Shown here piece after piece: positions 9,119 to 37,407 of a DNA stretch of 64,000 bases. Numbering within the stretch: the stretch's first letter is position 1; each line of letters starts with the position of its first letter. Source of the DNA: Chitinophagales bacterium (GTDB lineage Bacteria > Bacteroidota > Bacteroidia > Chitinophagales > CAIODY01); assembly GCA_947452995.1 (NCBI GenBank), contig CANGEV010000002.1, positions 65,172-129,171 on the forward strand, written 5' to 3'. The notes below the pieces were generated by a model. That model made no database searches and was not told the DNA's origin. It saw only the letters and a program-made list of their open reading frames with translations. A program made the translations under genes and the position numbers.

Positions 9119-9208
9119 TGATCCCTCCCGACTCGTCGGGATCGTAGTTATTGGGAGTGAATAGTGAAAAGTGAATAGTTAAAGCCTTTCACTCTTCACC
9201 ATTCACTT
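9119..9208. repeat. Dispersed hairpin plus GTGAATA micro-repeats
   Basis: This convergent gap holds a perfect short hairpin TCCCGAC-TC-GTCGGGA (9126-9141). It is followed by GGGAGTGAATAGTGAAAAGTGAATAG and a second inverted repeat in which AAAGTGAAT (about 9168) pairs with ATTCACTTT (about 9201). Related elements occur at 25205, 28946/29138 and 37083. It could end transcription from both sides, although the first hairpin lacks a T-run. Confidence 0.7.
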
Positions 9209-10639
9209 TTAACTTTTTATAAACTTCTTCGTAAAGCTTCCTTCACTCGGGTTTTGTGCGCGGATGATATAGGTGCCAGAAGGCCAATTGCTACAATTTA
9301 CCTCTACTTGTGAAACTTTGTTATCTGAGAACATTAGTTCGCCGAGCATATTATAAATCTGCAAAGCAGAGGCTTGATTTAATTTAATAGTGAATTTGTC
9401 TTGGCTTGGGTTAGGGAAGATATTCGCGTCATTTGTGTTGCTGCTATTAATTCCTGTTGCCCAATTAAATTCAATGAAATCATCATACACAGATTTTGTT
9501 GAATTAATATAAGCCATTGATGAAAATGAGTCATAGAATTGCATGATCTTCTCAGTCATTGCTCCTTGAATGCTGTATTGGTATTTTGTTCCATTGTATA
9601 TAATCCAACTAGCAGATCCATCCCAACTATACGTTTCTGCTATGGTTTGATTATCATAAGAATCAAATTGCGTTATTGTCTTTGTGTCATTCGTCCATGA
9701 AGTTCCAGTATACAATTCAGAAATTGCTACATTGCTATTGTTTGTGCTGTATGTAATGTTGCAACGCGTGTCCCACAACCAATTGTTCATGGAGAGGTCA
9801 TATGAGTCCATATAATAGCTTTGAATTAAGGAATTGTCAATGTTCCCATTCCATTGGTACCAAACTAAATTATAAACTCTGTAGCTAGGATCCCAACCAC
9901 CACTGCTTGGTTCTGATATTATTAAACTGGCTAAAATATTTTGATTGGTATAGGTATAGTTGTCGAGTTCATAGGGAATCCACGTATTCGTGCTACCATC
10001 AAAATAATCCATTTGTTCCATAAGTTTTGATCCTTGCGCATTATAAGTAATATTTATAGAACGATCTGAAATCATAAAAGTAAGACTGGTAGCATCCCAC
10101 ATTGAATTGGTGATACTGCTTGGCCATCCTTGTGAATTATAGGTATAGGCATGTTGGTAAGCAGAGACAATAACCCAAGTGTTTGTTGTATTATCCCAAT
10201 ATTCAGACTGATCAAGCGTGGTATTTAAATGAATATCGTAGTTGATAGTTCTGTTGTAGTAGTTAATCCAAGTATTCGTTGTGTTATCCCAATATTGTGT
10301 TAAACTGGATGTCATTAATCCATTGCTACCGAATGTATTTGTTTGTAAGGCTATATTTACTCCGTTTTGATCCTTTTGTAGTTTAGACAATATATGCGCC
10401 TTATTGTCGTAAGTATAGAGTGCAGTATCGGAGAAAGTCCAATTGCTTGCTGTATCATTCCAATAGTAATTCATCTCACGTTTAGGCGTGAAAAGACTAG
10501 TTGCTTTACTTGCTTGTGCGCTGTTTTGTTTTGGAAGAAATTTTTCTTGTAATGATTTTTTGATATCGACTTTTGCAAAGGCGATATTGCAAAGGGTTGT
10601 TACTAAAAATAAGAAAGTAGTAGCAGTTGATTTATTCAT
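9209..10639 (-). CDS. T9SS-exported repeat protein with type A sorting domain
   Basis: Predicted secreted or surface protein. An N-terminal signal peptide (ending near NIAFA) is followed by about nine degenerate repeats of roughly 40 residues, each with a W-D-x-x-T-N-T-W core (YWDNTTNTWI, EYWDNTTNTWV, YFDGSTNTWI) and a Tyr/Thr-rich strand ending in TYN or NYD. The last 75 residues are a T9SS type A sorting domain (NIFPNPSQDKFTI through SGTYIIRA to FTKKFIKS), which directs export through the outer membrane. The function of the repeat part is unknown; it may be adhesive or structural. It lies 53 nt after lptE on the same strand and ends in a repeat-bearing convergent gap. Confidence 0.85.
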   Translation of the reverse strand: MNKSTATTFLFLVTTLCNIAFAKVDIKKSLQEKFLPKQNSAQASKATSLFTPKREMNYYWNDTASNWTFSDTALYTYDNKAHILSKLQKDQNGVNIALQTNTFGSNGLMTSSLTQYWDNTTNTWINYYNRTINYDIHLNTTLDQSEYWDNTTNTWVIVSAYQHAYTYNSQGWPSSITNSMWDATSLTFMISDRSINITYNAQGSKLMEQMDYFDGSTNTWIPYELDNYTYTNQNILASLIISEPSSGGWDPSYRVYNLVWYQWNGNIDNSLIQSYYMDSYDLSMNNWLWDTRCNITYSTNNSNVAISELYTGTSWTNDTKTITQFDSYDNQTIAETYSWDGSASWIIYNGTKYQYSIQGAMTEKIMQFYDSFSSMAYINSTKSVYDDFIEFNWATGINSSNTNDANIFPNPSQDKFTIKLNQASALQIYNMLGELMFSDNKVSQVEVNCSNWPSGTYIIRAQNPSEGSFTKKFIKS

Positions 10640-24184: not shown

Positions 24185-25204
24185 ATGAGTACAGCAGCAG
24201 TTTTAACAGCTAAAGATTTCGCTAACGAATTAGATATCCGTTGGTGTCCAGGATGTGGTGATTATTCCATCCTAAAACAAGTACAAACCGTTCTTCCACA
24301 AATTGGTGCTTCGATAGAAAACACTGTTTTTGTGAGTGGTATCGGTTGTTCTAGTCGTTTCCCATATTACATGAATACGTATGGATTGCATACCATTCAC
24401 GGTCGTGCAACCGCAGTAGCTTCAGGTTTGAAGGCTTCTCGCCCTGATTTAGATGTTTGGATAATCTCTGGTGACGGAGACTCTATGTCGATCGGTGCTG
24501 GCCATACTATCCACCTTTTGCGTCGTAACCTAAACGTAAATATGTTGGTATTCAACAACCAAATTTATGGTTTGACGAAAGGACAGTATTCTCCAACTTC
24601 GGAAGAAAATAAAGTTACAAAGTCGTCTCCAATGGGCTCTATTGATCACCCATTCAACCCAGCCGCTTTGGCTTTGGGTGCCGACGCTAGCTTTGTTGCT
24701 CGTTCGATGGATCGTGATCCTAAACATCTTCAAGAAATGTTGAAGCGTGCCTATAATCACAAAGGAACTTCTTTCTTGGAGATCTATCAAAACTGTAACA
24801 TCTTTAACGATGGTGCTTTTGAAATCTTTACAGAGAAGAGCTCTAAGAAAATGCAAACATTGTTCGTAGAACAAGGCAAACCATTAATCTTCGGCGAAAA
24901 CAATGAATTAGGTATTAAGTTAGATGGCTTCAAACCCGTTGTCGTTAACTTGAACGAAGGTCATTCAATCGACGAATTATGGATCCACGATGAGAAAGAC
25001 TTAAGCAAGGCTTCTATCTTGGTTCGTATGTTCGACAACCCAATGTTAGAAGGTGATCATTTACCACGTCCTTTTGGCGTGTTCTATGTAAACGAACGTC
25101 CTACCTACGAATCTGCGTTCCACAACCAAATCGCAAGCGCTAAAGGCAAAAAAGCTGAATTAGATGCTTTGATCGCTGGTAAAGAAACGTGGACTGTGGC
25201 TTAA
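24185..25204 (+). CDS. korB: 2-oxoacid:ferredoxin oxidoreductase, beta subunit
   Basis: Thiamine-diphosphate-binding subunit and partner of KorA. The cluster/TPP motif RWCPGCGDYSIL lies near the N-terminus, with the TPP/Mg motif ISGDGDSMSIGAGH and the following NNQIYGLTKGQYSPT around residues 96-140. The third cysteine of the usual 4Fe-4S set is plausible in the QNCNIFND segment. Length 339 is normal. It is the last gene of the operon, followed by a micro-repeat block and then a terminator. Confidence 0.95.
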   Translation: MSTAAVLTAKDFANELDIRWCPGCGDYSILKQVQTVLPQIGASIENTVFVSGIGCSSRFPYYMNTYGLHTIHGRATAVASGLKASRPDLDVWIISGDGDSMSIGAGHTIHLLRRNLNVNMLVFNNQIYGLTKGQYSPTSEENKVTKSSPMGSIDHPFNPAALALGADASFVARSMDRDPKHLQEMLKRAYNHKGTSFLEIYQNCNIFNDGAFEIFTEKSSKKMQTLFVEQGKPLIFGENNELGIKLDGFKPVVVNLNEGHSIDELWIHDEKDLSKASILVRMFDNPMLEGDHLPRPFGVFYVNERPTYESAFHNQIASAKGKKAELDALIAGKETWTVA

Positions 25205-25286
25205 TGAATGGTTAATGATGAATAGTGAATAGTGAATAGTGAATAGTGAATAACTGACTTCACTATAAAATATTCAATCAAATAAT
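25205..25286. repeat. GAATAGT tandem micro-repeat block
   Basis: Directly after korB the sequence has four tandem GAATAGT units and a partial fifth (about 25220-25252), preceded by GAATGGTTAATGATG. The same GTGAATAGTGAA wording occurs at 9157 and, on the other strand, at 29108-29137. No coding capacity is credible here. Confidence 0.75.
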
Positions 25287-25322
25287 AAAAATCCTCTTGC
25301 GGCTTCGTGAGAGGATTTTTTA
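25287..25322. terminator. Terminator between korB and the small membrane gene
   Basis: AAAAATCCTCT pairs with AGAGGATTTTT around loop TGCGGCTTCGTG, with T's after it on + and A's before it, so it could work in both directions. Confidence 0.85.
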
Positions 25323-25356
25323 TTAATTAAGAATTAAGAATTAAGAATTACGAATT
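25323..25356. repeat. AATTAAG tandem micro-repeat
   Basis: About three tandem copies of AATTAAG (25325-25349) lead into GAATTACGAATTC. An equivalent block follows queD at 37046. Confidence 0.65.
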
Positions 25357-28327: not shown

Positions 28328-28918
28328 ATGACGGAACAGCCGCAGCGCATAGTGATTTTTGCAAGTGGGAGAGGCTCGAATGCTGCTGCCATCTGTGCCT
28401 ATTTTCACGCCTACGATCATATTAATGTTGCTGGGATTTTTACGAATAAAGCTGATGCAGGTGTTATTGAAGTAGCGAATAAATTTCGTGTTCCGCATTA
28501 TGTGTTTAATCGCGAGGAATGGCGTTCACCGTTATTTAATATTCAGAATTATATTGCTGAAAAAGTAGATTTGATTGTGCTAGCCGGTTTTTTGTGGCAG
28601 GTGCCTGATTCATTCTTGCAAAATCATGACGCACCCGTTATTAATATTCATCCGAGCTTATTGCCGAAGTACGGTGGTAAAGGGATGTATGGCATGCATG
28701 TGCACGAGGCGGTGAAGGCGGCAGGTGAAACAGAAACAGGGATCACCATTCATAAAGTAACCACGCAATACGACGAAGGTCCTGTCTTATTTCAGGCTAA
28801 ATGTGCGATTGCCCCTACAGACGACGTCGATACTATTCGAAAGAAAGTACAAGGCCTAGAGTATATTCATTTCCCGAAGGTGATTGAGTTTTTGCTTACT
28901 GCGTTAAGGATTGGTTAA
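28328..28918 (+). CDS. purN: Phosphoribosylglycinamide formyltransferase
   Basis: Third step of purine synthesis, adding a formyl group from 10-formyl-THF to GAR. GRGSNA near the N-terminus binds phosphate, and the catalytic Asn-His pair sits in INIHPSLLPKYGG with the catalytic Asp in YDEGPVLFQ. Length 196 is normal. The track start is a TTG; ATG 28328 two codons later is the natural start. The stop codon opens directly into the purine-rich repeat tract. Confidence 0.95.
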   Translation: MTEQPQRIVIFASGRGSNAAAICAYFHAYDHINVAGIFTNKADAGVIEVANKFRVPHYVFNREEWRSPLFNIQNYIAEKVDLIVLAGFLWQVPDSFLQNHDAPVINIHPSLLPKYGGKGMYGMHVHEAVKAAGETETGITIHKVTTQYDEGPVLFQAKCAIAPTDDVDTIRKKVQGLEYIHFPKVIEFLLTALRIG

Positions 28919-29105
28919 AAGGGAAAAGGGAAAGGGAAAAGGGGATCCCGATGCGAAGCTATCGGGAGGGAAAAGGGGAAAAGGGGAAAAGGGAAAAGGG
29001 AAAGGGAAAGGGGAAAAGGGAAAAGGGAAAAGGGAAAAGGGAAAAGGGAAAGGGAAAAGGGAAAAGGGAAAAGGGAAAAGGGAAAAGGGAAAAGGGAAAA
29101 GGGAA
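28917..29105. repeat. GGGAAAA purine tract with embedded hairpin
   Basis: Low-complexity DNA built of GGGAAAA/GGGAAA units. From 28964 to 29105 the + strand has 142 nt without a single pyrimidine and about twenty G-runs of three or more separated by three or four A's. This meets the usual G-quadruplex consensus many times and could also form a triplex. A hairpin TCCCGAT...ATCGGGA (28946-28967) interrupts the left part. Open frames of 60-109 codons on both strands here are consequences of the repeat and not genes. Confidence 0.9.
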
Positions 29106-29163
29106 TCACCATTCACTATTAACCATTCACTATTCACTCCCGATTGCATCGGGATCACCATTA
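29106..29163. repeat. ATTCACTATT micro-repeats and TCCCGAT hairpin
   Basis: Reverse-strand copies of the GTGAATAGTGAA motif (ATTCACTATTAACCATTCACTATT) run into a perfect hairpin TCCCGAT-TGC-ATCGGGA (29138-29154). Read on the - strand it aligns over about 25 nt with the element at 37081, differing at two bases. Confidence 0.75.
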
Positions 29164-31635: not shown

Positions 31636-31967
31636 AAAAAAAGAGTGGTCCCAAAGTTCGGAAAAATTAGCGTTCGATTGCCTTTTTAACTAAATAATTG
31701 ATAAATAATGGAGGGGAGGGGTAATAATTTGTGCTAGACGCGCGTTGTTTTAAAGATGCACGAATTAATTCGTGCATCTTTAGGGGCGGGACGCGGTATT
31801 TTACAATGCTAATTTCAAGCAATATCAAACGATTCGCATGCGTAAATAGAATTATCTGACATCTTGTCTGCGTTTTTTTTGATTTATTATAGGTTTTTGG
31901 CCAAAAAGTGTTGTTCAGAAATTCAATTGAGTGATAAAGCCAAATGGAATAATTGTTGTTGACGTAA
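31636..31967. other. AT-rich divergent gap with a long palindrome
   Basis: The 332-bp gap between the divergent TonB receptor and an orphan ORF holds no supported gene. It contains a perfect 32-bp palindrome (separate entry), a G-rich GGGGCGGGACGCGG segment just after it, and otherwise A+T-rich DNA with stops in all frames. Promoters for one or both neighbours must lie here, but I see no clean TTTG/TAnnTTTG pair. Confidence 0.5.
31751..31782. promoter_or_regulatory. Perfect 32-bp palindrome, possible operator
   Basis: TAAAGATGCACGAATT is followed directly by its reverse complement with no loop. There is no T-run on either side suited to termination, and no gene ends here, so binding by a dimeric regulator is more likely than termination. 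Function is inferred. Confidence 0.6.
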
Positions 31968-36592: not shown

Positions 36593-37047
36593 TGATGCAA
36601 GATACAGTACGCGTAACGAAGAAATTTACTATCGACATGGCGCATGCCTTATATGGCTATGATGGCCCTTGTAAGAATATTCATGGACATACCTATCATT
36701 TATCTGTGACGGTGATCGGCAAGGTGGATCAGTCGAATGATAGTCCGAAGCAGGGGATGGTAGTAGATTTTACGGATTTGAAGCGCATCGTGAATGAGCG
36801 TGTGGTAGATGTTTTCGACCATGCCTTGGTGCTGAATGAGCACGCGCCTTATACAAAGAATGATTTGATTCGCAACGAATTCGAGAAGGTGATTTTAACG
36901 GACTATCAGCCCTCTTGTGAGAATTTGTTATTAGAGTTCAAAAACCGTATTCAAGGGGTTTTGCCAGCGAATATAGCGCTGTTTTGCATCCGTTTGGATG
37001 AAACACCTAGCTCTTATGCGGAGTGGGTGAGGACGGATAATTTATAA
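36592..37047 (+). CDS. queD: 6-pyruvoyl-tetrahydropterin synthase/6-carboxytetrahydropterin synthase family
   Basis: Most likely QueD, which makes 6-carboxytetrahydropterin for queuosine (7-deazaguanine) synthesis; a PTPS role is the alternative. The catalytic Cys and zinc histidines form GPCKNIHGHTYHL with an upstream MAHALYGY histidine. FDHALVLNE supplies the Asp-His pair, PSCENLLLEF the cofactor-binding stretch and the ETPSSYAEW Glu lies at the C-terminus. Length 151 is somewhat above E. coli QueD. Two ATG codons stand in tandem at the start, the first overlapping the DUF4835 stop. No other queuosine genes are nearby. Confidence 0.9.
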   Translation: MMQDTVRVTKKFTIDMAHALYGYDGPCKNIHGHTYHLSVTVIGKVDQSNDSPKQGMVVDFTDLKRIVNERVVDVFDHALVLNEHAPYTKNDLIRNEFEKVILTDYQPSCENLLLEFKNRIQGVLPANIALFCIRLDETPSSYAEWVRTDNL

Positions 37048-37150
37048 TTAAGAATTAAGAATTAGGAATTATGCGGGAATGATCCCGATGTAATCGGGAG
37101 TGAAAAGGGAATGGAGCATGAGCTTGTCGAAGGCGAAGGCTTGAAGGTCA
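37046..37150. repeat. AATTAAG micro-repeat and TCCCGAT hairpin element
   Basis: AATTAAGAATTAAGAATTAGG directly follows queD, then a perfect hairpin TCCCGAT-GTA-ATCGGGA (37083-37099) with GTGAAAAGGGAATGG behind it. That tail resembles both the GTGAATA and GGGAAAA repeats elsewhere. A GAGCTTGTCGAAGG segment follows, similar to intergenic repeats seen in many bacterial genomes. Confidence 0.75.
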
Positions 37151-37352
37151 TTTTGTAATAAAGCCCTGCTTATAAGCAGGGCGACATGCTAATAGAAATA
37201 AATTTGCGGGACATGAATACAAACCCTGCTGTAAGGCAGGGTGACATTTTAATTTTTTCAACGCTGGCAACAACAATTTTGAAGCGGTGTTCTAAGACGC
37301 AAAGTGGAGAAGACCCAAAAGACTTGAATTTTACCCTCTTTCGAGGCTTAAA
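37151..37352. repeat. Two CCCTGC palindromes 60 bp apart
   Basis: A perfect 20-bp palindrome (37163-37182, half-site GCCCTGCTTA) and a 7-bp-stem hairpin ACCCTGC-TGTAAG-GCAGGGT (37223-37242) are spaced exactly 60 bp start to start, and each is followed by GACAT. The remaining about 110 bp before the hutU terminator shows no gene or motif that I recognise. Confidence 0.7.
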
Positions 37353-37388
37353 ATAAAAAAGCGCGTGCTCCGGTAGAAACACACGCTT
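37353..37388 (-). terminator. Terminator of hutU
   Basis: Read on -, AAGCGTGTG pairs with CACGCGCTT (one G-U pair) around a 12-nt loop and is followed by TTTTATTTT, 20 nt past the hutU stop. Confidence 0.8.
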
Positions 37389-37407
37389 CAATCGTATTGT
37401 TATCCGC

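Follow-up and report, generated by a model that had tools for sequence, protein, structure and literature searches.

A fast-turnover heptamer satellite with inserted palindromes as the probable occupant of gene ends in a Chitinophagales genome

TCCCGAT hairpins and GTGAATA-like repeats occupy the longer convergent gaps of this Chitinophagales DNA, which raises the question whether they form a conserved 3'-end device or are elements tolerated where genes end. The window (the whole stretch analyzed, 64 kb) belongs to a genome of 2.54 Mb in 36 contigs. Genes were called with our own hexamer-based caller, which ignores RNA genes and yields convergent gaps of 26, 90, 1, 197, 245, 360, −4, and 73 bp in the window. 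All four hairpins reported in the earlier note, at 9126-9141, 28946-28967, 29138-29154, and 37083-37099, are exact, compared with 0.01 expected by chance per window, and the copies at 37081 and, on the reverse strand, at 29130-29157 do match over 27 nt, including the tail, apart from two positions. The GAATAGT repeats noted near 25220 were confirmed as an array. Allowing one mismatch, the 12-mer GTGAAWAGTGAA has 13 matches in the window versus 1.1 expected. An Rfam search of the window gave no match, tRNA was the sole match in six element-bearing regions, and literature searches for the repeat sequences themselves returned none. The elements of the window are the following.

9126 to 9141, plus strand: TCCCGACTCGTCGGGA palindrome lying within an outer TCCC...GGGA hairpin (ATGATCCC[...]TCGTAGTTATTGGGAGTGA)
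9157 to 9184, plus strand: RKKAADR heptamer array
9186 to 9213, minus strand: RKKAADR array, reaching into the 3' end of the gene on the right
25204 to 25252, plus strand: heptamer array ATGAATG..GTGAATA, beginning at the stop codon of the left gene
25287 to 25320, unstranded: ordinary bidirectional intrinsic terminator AAAAATCCTCTTGCGGCTTCGTGAGAGGATTTTT, in a gap that also holds arrays
25325 to 25356, plus strand: AATTAAG-dialect array, a type common in the sister species
28914 to 29100, plus strand: GGGAAAA-dialect array, beginning at the stop codon of the left gene
28946 to 28967, plus strand: 22-nt palindrome TCCCGATGCGAAGCTATCGGGA, flanked by GGGA on both sides
29110 to 29137, minus strand: GTGAATA/GTTAATA array, facing the left array of the same gap
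29138 to 29154, minus strand: 17-nt palindrome TCCCGATGCAATCGGGA (G-strand reading), flanked by GTGA on both sides
37046 to 37071, plus strand: AATTAAG-dialect array, adjoining the stop codon of the left gene
37083 to 37099, plus strand: palindrome TCCCGATGTAATCGGGA, flanked by ATGA and GTGA
37163 to 37182, unstranded: GCCCTGCTTATAAGCAGGGC, related to palindromes beside a RAYT-like gene on contig C32 and of a different family from TCCCGA
37223 to 37242, unstranded: ACCCTGCTGTAAGGCAGGGT, second CCCTGC-family palindrome of the 37048-37407 gap

The repeats beside the hairpins are more varied than the GTGAATA motif that alone had been recognized before. GTGAATA, GGGAAAA, GTTAAAA, and AATTAAG arrays all fit one degenerate unit, RKKAADR, which carries no C on that strand. 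We define an array as at least three exact RKKAADR units, with four required in the main set from G002, the nearest sister species (nucleotide identity roughly 77-80% over the region of the window). These tandem 7-bp units lie in non-coding DNA and exceed chance, as expected of heptanucleotide long simple sequence repeats. Genes flanking array gaps encode a mixture of housekeeping and surface proteins (OsmC, a TPP enzyme, a formyl transferase, a TonB-type barrel, PTPS, urocanase, and a protein with a T9SS sorting domain, which suits a member of Bacteroidota).

Array direction follows the gene edges. Plus arrays stand at the left gene and minus arrays at the right gene, both reading into the gap. 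All array blocks no more than 20 bp from a gene boundary read inward, 23/23 in the own genome and 27/27 in G002, whose flanks were mostly selected for carrying arrays, and the rule (50/50 blocks in two species) holds at 3' boundaries as well as at the few 5' boundaries. Restricted to non-overlapping arrays 0-20 bp from a gene, the counts are 10/10 and 14/14, respectively, and the polarity weakens as distance from the gene grows. Facing arrays are present in just a minority of gaps; where both orientations occur, the order is plus then minus in nearly all cases. GC skew amounts to +0.40/+0.26 in array gaps versus −0.09/+0.06 in array-free convergent gaps. A general GC skew of 3' ends is thereby rejected as the source of polarity, and a transcription-strand bias toward purine-rich mRNA is insufficient, since arrays at 5' edges also read inward and are hence antisense. 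The polarity is therefore tied to gene edges and not to transcription direction. Packaging of all arrays into one inverted-repeat element was likewise rejected, as most single-sided gaps have no opposite array. Separately, heptamer arrays at several contig ends (L061:46-145, L067:42-141, L076:38-129, the L069 start, and the L072 end) are bordered by one and the same element that resembles an insertion sequence (ends TGTCCACTTTTTTCAGGACA / TGTCCTGAAAAAAAGTAGACAGT), and it looks as though arrays were its preferred surroundings.

Genome-wide counts support the earlier expectation that such elements concentrate between gene ends. Strict palindromes (TCCCGAT-N0-12-ATCGGGA) number 35, with none in the reversed-pattern control, and loose ones (TCCCGA-N2-16-TCGGGA) 51, with three in the control, well beyond the ten or so copies below which the proposal would have lapsed. 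All element counts are lower bounds because several contigs start or end inside arrays. Own-genome stretches that had not been picked for matches, 815 kb in all, give the following shares of element-bearing gaps among those longer than 80 bp: 7/24 for convergent gaps, 3/107 for same-strand gaps, and 0/80 for divergent gaps (convergent versus the remaining 3/187, p=1e-5). Leaving out the window, the enrichment is 3/20 versus 3/172 (p=0.016). The preference for convergent gaps is real, unlike the even distribution over orientations that would have told against the proposal. That every convergent gap longer than about 80 bp carries such elements, as had been stated, is true within the window (9119, 25205, 28919, and 37048, with no other gap doing so) but fails genome-wide, where 7/24 do. 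The statement is also partly circular because an insert itself lengthens its gap: the orthologue of the 245-bp gap 28919-29163 measures about 18 bp in G002, a near-empty site.

Comparison with G002 points to turnover of the arrays. Among 177 matched gaps, 160 hold elements in neither species, 11 in both, four in the own genome only (all convergent), and two in G002 only, counts that include palindromes and regions partly chosen for arrays and are thus not an unbiased rate. Gaps with arrays in both species usually have them in the same orientation but in different dialects, GTGAATA/GGGAAAA/GTTAAAA in the own genome versus ATTAAGA/ATGAATA in G002. In some own-genome arrays the outermost units are still AATTAAG (e.g., L074 near 3130, and 37046 in the window), perhaps a remnant of an older dialect kept at the array edge. 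Long composite blocks are also common to distant gaps, with 191 bp at 95.8% identity between C1 and C26 and 104 bp at 95% between C14 and C22.

The palindromes constitute a second layer. Hairpin and GTGAATA tail had been taken for a single family, a view that does not survive comparison across genomes: lag-7 identity around the hairpins of this genome is 0.50, compared with 0.25-0.35 at other lags, whereas around 44 hairpins of other genomes it is 0.28, which equals background. Hairpin and heptamer are thus separable. Elsewhere in the order the palindrome, commonly TCCCGATAGCTATCGGGA, is dispersed without heptamers, and some copies are found in truncated tRNA copies or within the loop of a larger hairpin; in G002 no exact TCCCGAT hairpin was found, although heptamer arrays are present. 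Short, present in tens of copies, and located nearly always in gaps, TCCCGA hairpins are REP-like dispersed palindromes in the general sense. Those inside arrays of this genome point one way with respect to the G strand, and in nearly all of these cases RKGA (mostly GTGA) stands on both flanks, giving the register RKGA-hairpin-RKGA. Identical 4-mers, such as the target-site duplication of a MITE or insertion sequence would leave, flank the hairpin at 26 of the 41 sites examined, a number to which co-amplification within arrays can contribute. Two origins of the flanking RKGA are compatible with these data: an insertion that duplicated 4 bp, or amplification of hairpin and array together in register. 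Palindromes also occur nested within palindromes (9126 in the window). The G-strand of the 22-nt palindrome (28946 and other 22-nt copies) contains GCGAAGC, a sequence known to form an unusually stable DNA mini-hairpin. A third dispersed hairpin, CGTTTCGTG(T)CTTCACGAAACG, has about 14 copies in the sampled DNA, often adjoining arrays (L062:5104, L055, L064:1207, L051:5063, L053:4959), and is found in the sister genome too.

How the palindromes spread was considered with respect to two kinds of mobile element. The earlier note had suggested that a REP-associated transposase elsewhere in the genome would point to mobilization. Two Y1_Tnp genes do exist, and the short, extragenic palindromes at gene ends would suit a RAYT/TnpA-REP enzyme, but the palindromes neighboring these genes are of another sequence. 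The RAYT-like gene at C32:14239 lies beside five tandem ACCCTGCCATGCGGCAGGGT palindromes (L077:6685-6939) and the second, C6:110897 (L078:4802), near TGCACGAATTAATTCGTGCA; genome-wide palindrome searches listed no TCCCGA hairpin beside either gene, and the GTAG tag is absent. Mobilization of the TCCCGA hairpin as a REP by such a transposase is disfavored and appears very improbable. Relatives of ACCCTGCCATGCGGCAGGGT are themselves dispersed, two of them in the 37048-37407 gap (37163 and 37223), and TGCACGAATTAATTCGTGCA is a dispersed hairpin, terminator-like in places, with a relative at 31751 in the window. A second candidate is a GIY-YIG-linked element targeting tRNA genes, which would have moved the palindrome or left it as a scar, the array copies being secondary landings. 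Across the order, 48/399 genomes and 25/165 genera have truncated tRNA copies in which a TCCCG...CGGGA hairpin stands for the anticodon arm (loci L117, L121, L124, L125, L138, and L290-L309), with an intact tRNA gene adjoining at 19/20 loci examined; no description of them was found in the literature searched. The hairpin loop sometimes retains the anticodon (e.g., TAC for Val). At two contig ends of the own genome (L074:16931-17369 on C29 and L052:1-790 on C2), degenerate copies in tandem come after an intact tRNA-Asn, with TCCCGCATGTGCGGGA replacing the anticodon arm and TCCCGAAGTATCGGGA a T-arm segment, and a small GIY-YIG ORF (C2:282-491) sits among them. Such small ORFs adjoin several truncated copies, and UvrC-type GIY-YIG genes have no hairpin of this kind nearby. 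However, a GIY-YIG-like ORF accompanies only 5/20 truncated-tRNA loci, one small gene in the own genome stands against 35 hairpins, and G002 has one gene and no TCCCGAT hairpin. Moreover, other palindromes occupy the same tRNA positions in other genomes. This origin is unlikely.

We regard the elements of the window as a fast-turnover intergenic satellite tolerated at gene ends, into which palindromes have probably been inserted, and not as a conserved terminator family, with a probability of about 0.55. Heptamer arrays at gene edges, reading inward, would form the first layer and carry the dispersed TCCCGA...TCGGGA palindromes as the second. Arrays may grow and shrink by slippage of seven-base units, and blocks could spread between gaps via ectopic recombination or gene conversion. 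Palindromes would insert at RKGA, perhaps duplicating 4 bp there, and copies would persist chiefly in promoter-free DNA between gene ends, where the filler may partly have displaced normal transcription terminators. Judged from the DNA alone, this model is the most likely one, being consistent with the polarity, the convergent enrichment, the dialect change, the near-empty site, the blocks shared between gaps, the single orientation and RKGA flanks of hairpins in arrays, the independence of the hairpin elsewhere, and the scarcity of terminators in array gaps of this genome. No dedicated transposase was identified. Several observations speak against the model. Passive slippage alone does not explain why the C-free strand reads inward, nor does it give a reason why units that vary at five positions keep RKKAADR. 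Many orthologous gaps keep arrays in both species, which neutral DNA need not do, and the depletion of terminators described below hints at a function, though it is not significant in G002.

One possible function is that of a 3'-end device, in which facing C-free/G-free arrays and hairpins would be selected to stop transcripts in both directions, by structure or by Rho loading on the pyrimidine-rich half, or to protect mRNA ends. Position at gene ends and sense polarity at 3' edges agree with such a device, as do the terminator counts. In a simple scan for a stem plus T run, intrinsic terminators were present in 9/22 array or hairpin gaps versus 41/49 other gaps of the own genome (p=5e-4), with 13/22 of the former showing no stem and T run on either strand, and the L061 gap has a hairpin in this genome where its G002 counterpart has a real terminator. 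Folds are also more stable in array gaps than in shuffled sequence (median z −4.3). A function through stronger RNA folding was nevertheless rejected, as convergent gaps free of arrays do no worse (z −5.4). The TCCCGA hairpins lack a T run, RKGA arrays coming next, and thus do not qualify as intrinsic terminators; the depletion is not significant in the array gaps of G002 (8/16 versus 14/22). Arrays in front of genes have the same inward polarity, the 25205 gap holds an ordinary terminator alongside its arrays, and array sequence is not conserved between the sister species. The depletion seen here gives the terminator role proposed in the earlier note indirect support; we consider a selected device doubtful, the weaker rival, and think it more likely that a tolerated satellite has displaced terminators. 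The inward polarity itself could alternatively stem from 3'-end addition at intergenic breaks, with a C-free repeat added to both 3' ends before these are joined. Under such telomere-like healing every gene edge would gain an inward array, the dialect would be set per genome, and old terminators would be lost. It would account for inward polarity at both gene edges regardless of gene direction, the plus-then-minus order, arrays lying directly at stop codons, disappearance of the original terminator, and degenerate, genome-specific units. Against it, most gaps have an array on one side only, with no hidden partner opposite, and no enzyme is known to perform such end addition in bacteria. This scenario is very improbable. 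End addition by a reverse transcriptase was rejected, as RVT_1 genes (one in the own genome, one in G001, none in G002) do not follow the arrays.

The tolerated satellite remains our preferred reading, and the locus bears on heptamer repeats generally. Any model of how such repeats originate must accommodate strict gene-edge polarity in two species whose dialects differ. With sister genomes that differ in dialect at the same gaps, slippage, gene conversion, and insertion can readily be tested. The system also keeps palindrome insertion apart from array growth and raises the question whether repeats are able to displace terminators.

In many bacterial genomes no long simple repeat is commoner than the heptamer. 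The cyanobacterial STRR repeats are, like the arrays here, dispersed tandem heptamers in non-coding DNA, and differ from them in unit sequence and lineage. TAACTGA intergenic heptanucleotide repeats have been described in Beggiatoaceae, Cyanobacteria, and five Bacteroidetes (PMC4679880), which cites the long simple sequence repeats of Mrazek et al. With these the present arrays share a seven-base unit, intergenic position, strain specificity, changes in steps of 7, contigs ending inside arrays, and genome-dependent dialects. The repeats of PMC4679880, however, have a fixed unit and in Beggiatoaceae lie mostly just upstream of start codons, whereas the arrays here have a degenerate C-free unit, lie mostly at 3' ends, face inward, and carry palindromes in register. 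The palindromes resemble REP/BIME palindromes with their RAYT (GTAG REPs, PMC3733652) in being short, extragenic, near gene ends, and present in tandem copies, but the TCCCGA hairpins have neither a GTAG tag nor a RAYT that they flank. They also resemble the CGTC-tagged REPs (PMC3733652), palindromes found in Bacteroidetes and others without a dedicated transposase, from which they differ in having no CGTC tag, in their TCCCGA(T) stem, and in their position inside heptamer arrays.
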